Positions 36,529-54,488 of a DNA stretch of 54,728 nucleotides are shown here, piece after piece. The DNA is taken from contig JAFSPM010000014.1 of assembly GCA_017442855.1 (NCBI GenBank), forward strand, positions 1-54,728, written 5' to 3'. The notes below the pieces were generated by a model. The model was not told the origin of the DNA. It searched no databases and saw nothing but the letters and a program-made list of their open reading frames with translations. Positions within the stretch are counted from its first letter, which is position 1. Each line of letters opens with the position of its first letter. Source of the DNA: Bacteroidaceae bacterium. Its GTDB lineage: Bacteria; Bacteroidota; Bacteroidia; Bacteroidales; Bacteroidaceae. The translations under genes were made by a program, and so were the position numbers.

Positions 36529-36594
36529 AGGACAAGTCTATTTTCCTATCAACCAGGTTTCGTTTTACCCCTCGTGTAATATTGTCCACTTTTT

Positions 36595-36655
36595 GTTCCC
36601 ACGTAGGGAACAGTCTGTTCCCCCTAGTGGAACTGATCGTTCCCAAGGAGGGAAC
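36595..36655. repeat. Three 17-bp palindromes in exact 22-bp register
   Basis: Units at 36595-36611, 36617-36633 and 36639-36655 each have arms related to GTTCCC / GGGAAC around a 5-nt centre (ACGTA, CCTAG, AAGGA) and are separated by 5-nt linkers. The start-to-start distance is exactly 22 bp. The array lies between the convergent ends of folB and the glycosyltransferase gene. The arms are conserved and the centres vary. The same register is found in the array at 50883-51190. Confidence 0.85.
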
Positions 36656-49642: not shown

Positions 49643-50773
49643 ATGGCAGGAATTTACCTACATGTGCCTTTTTGCAAAACCCGTTGCGCCTATTGCGACT
49701 TCTACTCCACCACCCTTTCGGAGTTGAAGCCTCGCTATGTCGAGGCCCTATGCCAAGAGCTGTCCATGCGTCGTAACTACCTGCATAATGAGCCTATTAG
49801 CACCCTTTACTTTGGCGGAGGCACTCCTTCGCAACTATCTGAGGCTGACTTTAAGAAGATATTTGCTTGCATAGATGAGGTTTATGGCTTGGAGACTTGT
49901 CAGGAGATTACCTTAGAGGCCAATCCTGACGACCTCACGGAAGATTATGTCAAGATGCTTAGTACCCTGCCGTTTAACCGCATCAGTCTGGGTATCCAGA
50001 CTTTCCACGAACCCACGCTGAAGCTGATTGGACGAAGGCATACGGCACAAGAAGCCATAGCAGCCGTTCGTCGTTGTCAGCAACATGGGTTTGCCAATAT
50101 CAGCATCGACTTGATCTATGGTTTGCCTTCAGAGACACCAGAGCTTTGGCTACAAGACTTGCAGACAGCCTTCTCGTTAGGAGTACAGCACATTTCAGCC
50201 TATCACCTTACCTACGAACAAGGCACCCGATTGTGGCAAATGTTACAAAAACACGAGATTGCAGAGGTAGATGAAGACACCAGTGTCGAGCTATTCCGCA
50301 TTTTGTGTGAGGAGATGCGTCAAGCCGGCTATGAGCATTATGAGATTTCCAATTTTGCCCTGCCTGGCTATCGTTCTCGCCATAACAGCGCCTATTGGCA
50401 CGAAGTACCCTACTTAGGAGCTGGTCCAGGCGCCCATTCATTCGATGGCGAGAGCCGAGAGTGGAATGTCGCTTCGCTGCCCACCTATATCGAGGCCCTG
50501 GAAGCAGGTCGGCGCGACTTTGAACGAGAAACGCTCGACAAAGACACCCAATACAACGAGTTCATCATGACACGCCTCCGCACCTGCGAGGGCTTTAGCC
50601 TAAAAACCCTCCAACAACGCTTTGGCACCACCTACCACGACTATTGCCTCTTGTTGGCCACTCCCTATATGAAGCGAGGTTGGCTACTACAAAAAGAAGA
50701 TACCCTCCAGCTATCGCCAGAGGGCATCTTCGTATCCGATGATATCATCAGTGATTTAATGAAAGTTTTATAA
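49643..50773 (+). CDS. hemW: Radical-SAM heme chaperone HemW
   Basis: This is 376 residues in the HemN/HemW family. The radical-SAM cysteines are in VPFCKTRCAYCDFYS (C11, C15, C18), followed by TLYFGGGTPS, TLEANPDDL, ISLGIQTFHE and HNSAYWHEVPYLGAGPGAHSF. It lacks the features of true oxygen-independent coproporphyrinogen oxidase (HemN is longer), so HemW is preferred. The start at 49643 lies after the promoter; the open frame upstream is antisense to the galactosidase gene. The inverted-repeat element begins 6 nt after the stop. Confidence 0.92.
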   Translation: MAGIYLHVPFCKTRCAYCDFYSTTLSELKPRYVEALCQELSMRRNYLHNEPISTLYFGGGTPSQLSEADFKKIFACIDEVYGLETCQEITLEANPDDLTEDYVKMLSTLPFNRISLGIQTFHEPTLKLIGRRHTAQEAIAAVRRCQQHGFANISIDLIYGLPSETPELWLQDLQTAFSLGVQHISAYHLTYEQGTRLWQMLQKHEIAEVDEDTSVELFRILCEEMRQAGYEHYEISNFALPGYRSRHNSAYWHEVPYLGAGPGAHSFDGESREWNVASLPTYIEALEAGRRDFERETLDKDTQYNEFIMTRLRTCEGFSLKTLQQRFGTTYHDYCLLLATPYMKRGWLLQKEDTLQLSPEGIFVSDDIISDLMKVL

Positions 50774-50778
50774 AAGCA

Positions 50779-50859
50779 ACCTTCACCCTTCACCTTTTTC
50801 TTAAAACATCATGAGTTTACTTGTTTATTAAGGTGAAGGTAGAGGTGAAGGGTGAAGGT
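50779..50859. repeat. Left 81-bp terminal inverted repeat, itself palindromic
   Basis: It begins ACCTTCACCCTTCACC (50779-50794) and ends GGTGAAGGGTGAAGGT (50844-50859), which are exact reverse complements, so the single end can fold into a hairpin with a 16-bp stem. An extra GGTGAAGGT at 50832-50840 breaks the symmetry and tells the two halves apart. Confidence 0.92.
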
Positions 50860-50882: not shown

Positions 50883-51190
50883 CTTAATTAGGCGTTTTTT
50901 TCTGCCTAGTTAGGAAATTTTTTCTGCCTAGTTAGGAAAAAATATTTTCCTAGTTAGGGCGCAAAAAAACGAGATACGTTCTCGTTGCCTTTGAGAACCG
51001 TTCTCGTCGCTTGCGAGATACGTTCTCGTCTTGAAATTCTCTAGAGAATTTTGTGGTTTACTACTAGTAAGCGGTGGGTTTACTACTAGTAAACCGCCCT
51101 TTTACTTCCCTTAAGCAAAAAGCCCGATTACTTTAAGAAAACCCCTTAGTTACTTAAAGCAAATGACCAACTATCTTTAAGTAAAAAAAA
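50883..51190. repeat. Array of 14 palindromic units in exact 22-bp register
   Basis: Unit starts are 50883, 50905, 50927, 50949 (core CCTAGTTAGG, first one CTTAATTAGG); 50971, 50993, 51015 (core GAGATACGTTCTC or GAGAACCGTTCTC); 51037 (TTCTCTAGAGAA, within a 16-bp perfect palindrome 51035-51050); 51059 and 51081 (TACTACTAGTAA); 51103, 51125, 51147, 51169 (TTACTTTAAG-like). Neighbouring units share a family, families change along the array, and every step is 22 bp, about two helical turns. Each core is palindromic or nearly so. The array lies directly upstream of the VirE-like promoter. Confidence 0.9.
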
Positions 51191-51235
51191 GTATTATTAT
51201 TATGCATCCCAAAAGTCCGCTTTTTGGGTCTAAAA

Positions 51236-51267
51236 TTTGGAAGTGATTAATTTTTTTTATATCTTTG
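51236..51267 (+). promoter_or_regulatory. Promoter of the VirE-like gene
   Basis: TTTG (51236-51239), 20 nt, TATCTTTG (51260-51267), a consensus match about 40 nt before the ATG. The hairpin CCCAAAA (51208-51214) / TTTTGGG (51222-51228) lies just upstream. Confidence 0.75.
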
Positions 51268-51307
51268 TGCCCCTTTTTGCGGGAAATTTAATTTTTTTTA
51301 ATAATTT

Positions 51308-52523: not shown

Positions 52524-52604
52524 ACCTTCACCCTTCACCCCAACCTTCACCTTAATAAATTTGAAAACTCATGCTCTTTTAAGAAAAAGGTGAAGGGTGA
52601 AGGT
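52524..52604. repeat. Right 81-bp terminal inverted repeat
   Basis: Reverse complement of 50779-50859 with 8 mismatches and no gaps. Like the left end it is a palindrome, ACCTTCACCCTTCACC (52524-52539) against GGTGAAGGGTGAAGGT (52589-52604). It starts 10 nt after the VirE-like stop. Confidence 0.92.
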
Positions 52605-52641
52605 GGATTTGTAATTCTTTGTAAAATAATAATCAAAGACT

Positions 52642-52671
52642 ACGAAAAAAGTCGTAACGAAAAAAGTCGTA
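52642..52671 (+). repeat. 15-bp perfect tandem repeat
   Basis: ACGAAAAAAGTCGTA occurs twice without a spacer (52642-52656, 52657-52671). Each copy is an imperfect palindrome ACGA/TCGT. Confidence 0.8.
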
Positions 52672-52739: not shown

Positions 52740-52798
52740 ATGGTACACAAAATTGTGGTCCACAAACTTGTGTACCATTGTTTTTTTATATACCTTTG
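52740..52798 (+). promoter_or_regulatory. Promoter with composite palindromic operator
   Basis: ATGGTACACAA (52740-52750) and TTGTGTACCAT (52768-52778) are exact reverse complements, and TTGTGG-T-CCACAA (52753-52765) is nested at the same centre. The right arm covers the -33 position (CTTG 52767-52770, 20 nt before TACCTTTG 52791-52798). A regulator bound here would cover the promoter of the leader and BACON gene. Confidence 0.7.
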
Positions 52799-53057: not shown

Positions 53058-54488
53058 ATGAAAGAGTTAAAATTATGTCTAGTCTTATTGTCAGCTATCT
53101 TGCTGAATGCTTGTGGTGGAGATAATGGTCCAAGTTCGGAACCATCCAAACCCACACCAACTCCTACGCCAACCACAACAACACCAACTATAGAAATAGC
53201 AACTACGGAGAACACAAGCCCTGTGCTTTCTCAAACTAGCGGTTCTGCTCAGCTGAGCTTCAAAGCAAGTGGCGATTGGACGGTAACTTGTTCTGAATCT
53301 TGGATCAAAGTATCACAAGCAAGTGGTAAAGCTGGAAGTGTTACCATCACTATTTCAGCTTCAGATAATGATACTTATGATGATAGAAAAGGAACGGTAA
53401 CTATTAGTATAGGTTCAGTAATTAAAACGATTAACGTAAGCCAAGTGCAAAAGGACGCTATTGTTTTAGCTTTACAAGACTATAACATAGAGGCTACCAC
53501 CAAACAATTGGACTTTGAGGTGGAAACAAACGTAAGTCTTGCTGTTACCATTAGTGAAGATGCTAGTTCATGGATAACACAAGCCACCACTCGTGCCTTG
53601 CATACCGCGACTTTGCATTTTGACATTGCGCCTAATACTACTACAGAAGCTCGTGAAGGAACAATCACCATTTCTGGTGGCTCAGTTACTCAGACTATCA
53701 AGGTAAAGCAGGATGGTGACGGTGTTATTTCATTTGAGGACGCAGAGGTAAAAGCCATCTGTGTAGCTAACTGGGATACGAATGGGGATGGAGAGCTAAG
53801 TCATTCCGAGGCAGCGGCAGTAACTGATATTGGCACCACTTTTAAAGGGAATGTAAATGTCAGGTCATTCAATGAATTCCAATTCTTCAAAGGGTTGACA
53901 GACCTGCCACTTGGTGCTTTTAGAGACTGTTCCGATCTGACCGGCATTACATTGCCTGATGGGATAACATCTATAGGAGGCTGGGCATTTTTTTATTGCA
54001 GCAGCCTGACTAATATTACGCTGCCAGAAGGGTTAAAAACAATTGGAGATTCAGCATTTGTAGGTTGTAGCAGCTTGACCAGCATTAAACTGCCAGATGG
54101 ACTAACATCTATTGAAATATTTGCATTTCAAAATTGTAGCAGTCTGACTAACATTACTATTCCAAAAGGGGTAACAAGTATTGGAGGTCAAACATTTGGT
54201 AGTTGTAGCAGTTTGATCAGCGTAACACTGCCAGATGGGATAACATCTATAGGAGAATCAGCATTTTACAATTGTAGCAACCTAACCAGCATTAAGCTGC
54301 CAGATGAACTAATTACAATAGGCCGACTTGCATTTTCAGGTTGCAGCAGCCTAGCCAGCATAACGCTGCCGACTGTGCTATCAACTATAGAATCTAGTGC
54401 ATTCGGCGGTTGTAGCAGTCTAACCAGCATCACGTTGCCGGAAGGGGTAACAACAATAGGCGAATGGGTATTCGGTGGCTGTATTTAG
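53058..54488 (+). CDS. BACON-domain and BspA-like leucine-rich-repeat surface lipoprotein
   Basis: This is a 476-residue predicted lipoprotein: lipobox LLNAC (C19), a Pro/Thr linker (about 28-45), and two BACON domains (about 46-133 and 135-220; WTVTCSESWIKVSQASGKAG is typical). Then comes an EF-hand/dockerin-like loop DTNGDGELSHSEA (about 238-250) and eight BspA/TpLRR repeats of 23 residues (consensus C-S-S-L-T-x-I-T-L-P-x-G-x-T-x-I-G-x-x-A-F). The last repeat stops right after its Cys (GGCI), with no C-terminal cap, so the protein may be shortened. BspA-like proteins bind host or mucin components; the ligand is unknown. It is expressed from a long structured leader. Confidence 0.85.
   Translation: MKELKLCLVLLSAILLNACGGDNGPSSEPSKPTPTPTPTTTTPTIEIATTENTSPVLSQTSGSAQLSFKASGDWTVTCSESWIKVSQASGKAGSVTITISASDNDTYDDRKGTVTISIGSVIKTINVSQVQKDAIVLALQDYNIEATTKQLDFEVETNVSLAVTISEDASSWITQATTRALHTATLHFDIAPNTTTEAREGTITISGGSVTQTIKVKQDGDGVISFEDAEVKAICVANWDTNGDGELSHSEAAAVTDIGTTFKGNVNVRSFNEFQFFKGLTDLPLGAFRDCSDLTGITLPDGITSIGGWAFFYCSSLTNITLPEGLKTIGDSAFVGCSSLTSIKLPDGLTSIEIFAFQNCSSLTNITIPKGVTSIGGQTFGSCSSLISVTLPDGITSIGESAFYNCSNLTSIKLPDELITIGRLAFSGCSSLASITLPTVLSTIESSAFGGCSSLTSITLPEGVTTIGEWVFGGCI

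Follow-up and report, generated by a model that had tools for sequence, protein, structure and literature searches.

REP and BIME elements are dispersed intergenic palindromic repeats that are accompanied by a RAYT (Y1) transposase. In plasmids and phage satellites, iteron origins have phased sites close to the gene of a replication-type helicase, and parS, matS and phage operators are clustered dyad-symmetric protein sites. In the Bacteroidales, the BrickBuilt MITE of Porphyromonas gingivalis is described as a multi-copy intergenic element of 23-nt direct repeats with IS5-like terminal repeats (PMC4596501). Our searches of the literature found no paper naming DUF6078 or DUF3874 and nothing on point for palindromes in Bacteroides or Bacteroidales.

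Here we analyze a 54,728-nt stretch of a Bacteroidaceae genome (contig JAFSPM010000014.1 of assembly GCA_017442855.1), which as a whole is called the window, and in which an array of 22-bp units lies between hemW and the gene of a 401-aa VapE/DUF3874 helicase. Like REP and BIME elements, this array and its relatives are dispersed intergenic palindromes, here with matching copies beside one gene, DUF6078. Unlike them, they keep a constant 22-bp pitch, their motif changes from array to array, and DUF6078 matches only its own Pfam family, PF19555. A REP/RAYT system was rejected, as no Y1 (RAYT) transposase is adjacent and the neighbors in the window are hemW and VapE. Like an iteron origin, the window array has its phased sites close to a helicase gene of the replication type, but it holds several palindrome families and 12 of the 15 sites of its type have no VapE beside them. 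With parS, matS and phage operators the arrays share dyad-symmetric sites, and the two-turn spacing would suit dimers on one face; they differ from these in a recognition motif that appears to change with the DUF6078 clade at constant pitch. BrickBuilt is likewise a Bacteroidales intergenic multi-copy element with tandem repeats of about two turns, but its repeats are direct and 23 nt long, and no word beginning with "palindrom" occurs in its text (PMC4596501). Phased operator arrays are already known; as far as these searches go, a constant-pitch, clade-specific array system tied to DUF6078 is undescribed.

Structure, surroundings and conservation of the window array

The initial annotation had described fourteen palindromic units that start at 50,883, keep a strict 22-bp register and are built from successive sequence families. 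The units are present and the description is right in substance, with corrections. The lag-22 self-identity over 50883–51190 is 0.531, against a mean of 0.269 (sd 0.028, maximum 0.367) in 2000 Markov shuffles and a mean of 0.259 at lags 5–119 excluding multiples of 22. The palindrome-chain score is 41.5, while the maximum in 2000 shuffles is 19.75. The families change by block as described (Table 1), with near-duplicate units inside each block, except that the first unit of block C is a variant and only three units are alike. A palindromic core had been assigned to every unit; strong palindromy is limited to the six central units of blocks B, A and D (scores 5–9, background mean 3.2), and the units of C (3.5–4.0) and E (3.0–4.5) are weak. 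The register stands as measured by lag-22 identity but is not strict for the dyad, whose center, located from the sequence, lies at offsets of 4.5, 6, 5.5 and 5 within the unit and then at ~9 in the last block. This slip of 3–4 bp into block E is also seen as raised lags 25–27. One E unit in the close relative L007 is a perfect TTACTTTAAGTAA. The array is made up of five families of unit, and we also agree that it is neither a CRISPR array, which needs near-identical repeats and unique spacers, nor a simple tandem repeat, nor an iteron origin with repeats of one sequence.

Table 1. Coordinates of the features in and around the two arrays of the window.
Feature	Coordinates	Strand	Basis and remarks
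Mosaic array, fourteen 22-bp units, in blocks of four C, three B, one A, two D and four E	50883..51190	+ (= C-to-E orientation)	Sequence; 99.4% identical in L007
Block C: CTTAATTAGG, then CCTAGTTAGG x3	50883..50970	+	Sequence; same block at other sites
Block B: [CT]GAGA[TA][AC]CGTTCTCG x3; palindrome starts 1 bp upstream of unit	50971..51036	+	
Block A: AATTCTCTAGAGAATT x1; palindrome starts 2 bp upstream of unit	51037..51058	+	
Block D: TTTACTACTAGTAA x2; palindrome starts upstream of unit	51059..51102	+	
Block E: four weak units of TTACTTTAAG type; 3-4 bp slip of the dyad	51103..51190	+	
VapE gene leader	51191..51307	+	98.3% identical to L007
VapE-like helicase with DUF3874, 401 aa	51308..52513	+	Pfam PF05272 1.3e-29, PF12990 7.6e-14; PHROG DNA helicase 4.2e-37
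Left arm, long inverted repeat of CCTTCACC-like repeats	50773..50859	+	87 nt, 89% complementary to 52524-52610
Right arm, same inverted repeat	52524..52610	-	Equivalent arms in L008 and L010
Second window array, GTTCCC-N5-GGGAAC x3 (one with mismatch), exact 22-bp steps 36595, 36617, 36639	36594..36655	.	Between convergent folB and glycosyltransferase gene

The 87-nt arms of a long inverted repeat bracket the array together with VapE. Six VapE homologs, including that of the window, are found in the genome (2.76 Mb, 49 contigs). At two of the loci, L008 and L010, VapE lies at other places and beside different neighbors, shorter or degenerate arrays precede it as judged by eye, and it is bracketed by inverted repeats of other letters (85 nt, 88%; 54 and 49 nt, 93–94%). 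The VapE leader contains TATCTTTG at 51260–51267, which we take to fit the Bacteroides -7 box TAnnTTTG. A Pfam search recognized no transposase gene beside the window array. The Rfam search of the window gave no match at gathering score except a tRNA, PADLOC returned only a generic PrimPol match and two weak ones, and NCBIfam returned no match. Other repeats were also observed in or near VapE genes. Tandem palindromes at 15-bp pitch lie just 3′ of the window VapE, at 52642–52671 (ACGAAAAAAGTCGTA x2) and 52740–52778 (CACAA..TTGTG x2), and the gene after VapE encodes BspA-type leucine-rich repeats in 69/138-bp coding repeats at 53938–54306. At ~520–840 of L006, tandem repeats (GGGGAGGAGTTGAGAGAAGAAGTCGC) lie within a VapE/primase reading frame of the same genome.

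Compared with L007, the window array shows 2 mismatches in 308 bases and one inserted T, which falls between units 1 and 2. The array is kept there with its register apart from this base, and lag 22 stands far above the neighboring lags, so neither the related strain nor the autocorrelation refutes the pattern first described. The array is better kept than VapE (62 mismatches in 1206; Fisher 9e-5), hemW (130 mismatches in 1214; Fisher 3.6e-11) and the inverted-repeat stretches (28 mismatches in 216; 1e-9). The VapE leader has 2 mismatches in 117, and hemW and the neighboring genes of L007 are 88–89% identical to the window. Because the identity is 99.4% for the array, 94.9% for VapE and 89.3% for hemW, the comparison of this one genome pair indicates that the window array is under constraint. 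Recent transfer of the whole element would not explain the conservation, because the ends of the element diverge at the background rate. The linkers of the window array are as conserved as its palindromes, which a simple half-site reading does not predict.

Recurrence of the 22-bp pitch and arrays beside DUF6078 genes

Used as a DNA query against its own genome, the window array gave 50 matches at 15 sites, the window included, some of them of only a few units. The order of B units, A and D is kept by eye at six of the seven sites having B units, and window-type arrays are found in either orientation relative to VapE. We scanned 1.19 Mb of the genome, in contigs chosen because they bear arrays, for palindrome chains at periods of 13 to 40. 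Period 22 gave 14 chains of at least three units and 5 of at least four, compared with 2 and 0 in one Markov null, and 9 of the 14 were convincing by eye. No other period rose above 9 chains, a count reached at 33 bp (3 of at least four units) that is largely a harmonic of 22. Two other genomes were scanned over 400 kb apiece, and there period 22 was not prominent (4 chains against 1 in the null, and 2 against 0), other periods reaching 5 and 3. The best chains in those two genomes are still clear arrays, with TAAAGC-N3-GCTTTA at two G021 sites and a seven-unit chain in G039. The pitch of about two helical turns, to which the initial annotation had drawn attention, is the feature common to arrays of differing sequence. 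A blastn search of plasmids with the window array gave no match. Some further arrays were noted in passing. At 1500–1800 of L072 (G088), an array of 22–23 bp units switches family part-way from GAGATACGTATGTC to CGTCTCTATAGAGAGACG, like the window mosaic, and HU-HIG genes of two genomes are accompanied by similar arrays in which AACTACCTATAGGTAGTT units recur every 22 bp (L287 and L288, ~1290–1375).

The second array of the window bears the motif of the array of one DUF6078 gene in the same genome. Within one mismatch, GTTCCCN5GGGAAC occurs at 16 sites in this genome, against 8 for the pattern read backwards. Fifteen of the 16 make up five arrays with steps of exactly 22 bp; the remaining site is within a gene. 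One array is ~90 bp upstream of the DUF6078 gene C1:26460-26909, which has its array on the 5′ side, unlike the usual 3′ position. Three of the five lie between convergent genes (window, C37:186416 and C15:128726). The half-sites and the pitch are common to these arrays, and because their loops differ, they look like sites rather than recent copies.

An inspection of 61 DUF6078 loci, drawn from this genome, its genus, family and order with flanks of 500 bp, revealed an asymmetry. The strict test found arrays 3′ of the gene at 29/61 loci and 5′ at 4/61 (3.6e-7), in a set that is not independent, as five of the loci come from the window genome and include near-identical copies. With the relaxed test the counts were 37/61 and 6/61. 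Shuffled 3′ flanks scored 7 (strict) and 10 (relaxed) times in 1220, which is under 1%. The 22 loci that fail both 3′ tests are counted in a set that includes L180 and L237, with under 100 bp of 3′ DNA, and excludes the fragment locus L232. DUF6078 also occurs in plasmid and phage records; in the eight fetched of nine matches, 3′ arrays were present in five (strict) or six (relaxed) and strict 5′ arrays in none, the array of phage record L380 being nearly the same as that of L183 in the 61-locus set. The other two records, from Bacteroides finegoldii and Treponema saccharophilum, show half-sites spaced 22–23 bp by eye. Two long VapE genes of the window genome, one of which (L056) has a primase domain, adjoin DUF6078 genes with a different 22-bp-spaced array between them. 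The order DUF6078, array, VapE was found with a detected array at six loci (L011, L379 of Parabacteroides distasonis with DUF6078 protein WP_011966740.1, L197, L199, L205 and L230), and the order VapE, array, DUF6078 by eye only at L164 and L166. A CRISPR-like array whose repeats contain ATCTACAATAGTAGAAAT lies directly after the DUF6078 gene of L164 (2400–2876); we presume these repeats to be Cas12a-like.

Conservation in the DUF6078 arrays is concentrated in the columns at 4–8 bp from the dyad, where mean identity is 0.63–0.95; the central and linker columns fall at ~0.2–0.6. A motif similarity above 0.7 was seen for 21 of 49 DUF6078 protein pairs that are at least 40% identical, against 6 of 617 pairs below 40%. 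The Mantel correlation between protein and motif was 0.39, and none of 2000 permutations reached it. The half-site motif thus appears to follow the DUF6078 clade, a coupling that could also come from linked inheritance. The initial annotation had put forward a reader of spacing rather than sequence. This idea does not agree with the conserved half-sites of the DUF6078 arrays, with a motif that tracks the clade, or with a window array that is the best-conserved segment among those compared.

DUF6078 is found in 34 of the 41 sampled genomes of the genus, and the phage collection holds five matches to it. Pattern-based scans for DUF6078 and VapE in viral contigs gave no relative. An alignment of eight sequences shows four invariant cysteines, a profile search of the PDB with DUF6078 gave no relative, and a single-sequence fold prediction was uninformative (pLDDT 44). 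The five DUF6078 matches of the window genome fall at none of the 15 window-type sites, so that DUF6078 cannot be assumed to be the reader of the mosaic.

Other genes were considered as partners, with control loci of ~1.5 kb per side, for which rates are not directly comparable with those of the 500-bp DUF6078 flanks. Around VapE domains of other genomes, at loci that have the C-terminal domain at their center and in many cases do not cover the 5′ side, arrays were found at 5/29, the same as for the hemW controls (5/29), own loci excluded. Some of the hemW matches are clear arrays with other motifs (L260, L263 and L267). HU-HIG, two genes of which lie near arrays of the window genome, was rejected, as its flanks gave 3/29 (29 of 30 fetched loci), no more than hemW. 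DUF4248 was set aside as well, with strict 3′ arrays at 4/30, of which two were convincing by eye, and no clear enrichment; one further DUF4248 gene stands beside a G021 array.

Possible readings of the arrays

A protein or an RNA had been proposed as the reader. An array of RNA hairpins, as a 3′ UTR structure, a small-RNA precursor or an RNA antitoxin, would fit the position of the arrays 3′ of DUF6078 genes and the folding of the window array, whose + strand folds better than shuffles (z -5.7), but the opposite strand folds no less well (z -6.2). In 37 DUF6078 arrays, read on the gene sense strand, G-T mismatches number 26 and A-C mismatches 23. Double changes, 33 against 6.3 expected under independence and 16 of them complementary, favor pairing; this excess may mainly reflect phase slips of whole units. 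An earlier count at a low unit threshold gave G-T 35, A-C 49 and 65 complementary double changes, and was judged too noisy to use. The window-type B blocks show 11 G-T against 9 A-C mismatches, and the D blocks 30 against 12, although a single fixed variant accounts for 24 of the 30, and at the C/G alternative of block D the half-sites are uncorrelated (p 0.67 over the 52 units in which both sides carry C or G). Window-type arrays run in either direction with respect to VapE, and the tRNA was the only Rfam match of the window at gathering score. The wobble counts show no sign of RNA hairpins, which makes RNA a disfavored reader and RNA hairpin arrays very unlikely. A type III toxin-antitoxin system, with RNA repeats upstream of a ToxN-like gene, was rejected on the mainly 3′ position of the DUF6078 arrays and the lack of wobble bias. 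The part of the proposal that names a protein is the one we retain.

The ordered blocks and the heptad inverted repeat might instead belong to a dispersed, MITE-like repeat, that is, a non-autonomous mobile element whose palindromes are structural and which is perhaps moved by a VapE-bearing relative. The 15 sites in one genome, the kept order of B, A and D, the long inverted repeats with locus-specific heptads around VapE in the window, L008 and L010, and the different neighbors of VapE in the latter two are all consistent with mobility, as are two G284 loci whose arrays have no counterpart beside the one flank matching this genome. However, neither a target-site duplication nor a clean empty site came out of the two site comparisons, no transposase gene was recognized beside the window array, and a strongly constrained array between unconstrained inverted repeats is not what a decaying MITE would be expected to show. 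The GTTCCC arrays, which share half-sites and pitch and not loops, are unlike recent copies, and the association with DUF6078 is left unexplained. We consider such an element unlikely as the explanation, and it is not mutually exclusive with a protein platform. In an origin of replication, the palindromes would be iteron-like sites of the VapE helicase, whose longer relatives have a BT4734-type primase domain, and the inverted repeats would be part of the origin. VapE is a predicted helicase, and arrays adjoin it in the window, L007, L011, C6 and C15 of the same genome and P. distasonis, as well as by eye in L008, L009 and L010. Since 12 of the 15 window-type sites have none of the six VapE homologs beside them, the half-sites vary from one array to the next and even inside the window array, as those of iterons do not, and neither the pattern-based scans of viral contigs nor blastn of plasmids gave a VapE relative or an array match, respectively, an origin seems distinctly improbable. 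The near-duplicate units within a block would also suit sequence-neutral tandem duplication with palindrome-directed mutation and no function. A 22-bp pitch common to unrelated sequences, conserved half-sites and near identity between relatives make this extremely improbable.

On balance, the window array is probably a member of a Bacteroidaceae class of platforms with phased sites on double-stranded DNA, to which a dimeric protein would bind cooperatively, with DUF6078 as the candidate for the DUF6078-type arrays. The DUF6078 arrays combine conserved dyad half-sites, variable spacers and a constant pitch, as would be expected of a phased protein-binding array; the window mosaic shares the pitch, but its linkers are conserved too. 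In each 22-bp unit, two inverted half-sites spaced by about one turn would form a dyad-symmetric site, and the two-turn pitch would set successive sites on one DNA face, so that bound dimers could touch and assemble cooperatively. In its best-documented form, the platform would lie just 3′ of the DUF6078 gene encoding its proposed binder, sometimes before a VapE helicase gene, and arrays with that motif at other chromosomal positions might be further sites for the same DUF6078 protein. The window array would be a larger mosaic of several half-site families, placed before VapE and inside a long inverted repeat. Most likely, the mosaic nucleates a similar nucleoprotein assembly that would control the VapE element or help to replicate or maintain it. 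This role is suggested by the location of the mosaic ahead of VapE and by the order and constraint of its units. A tentative and rather doubtful extension is a lineage-wide site system in which the pitch is the conserved code and the half-site letters can be swapped. DUF6078-type proteins would co-evolve with their own arrays, and mosaics would be composite platforms that bring several DNA-binding paralogs into one mixed filament.

The arrays point to a class of dispersed repeats that similarity searches overlook, since their sequences differ. For DUF6078, a common and uncharacterized family, its own array is a concrete and testable partner. If the arrays are indeed binding sites, their geometry would be kept while their letters change by clade, and they may offer a handle on the evolution of DNA-recognition specificity.
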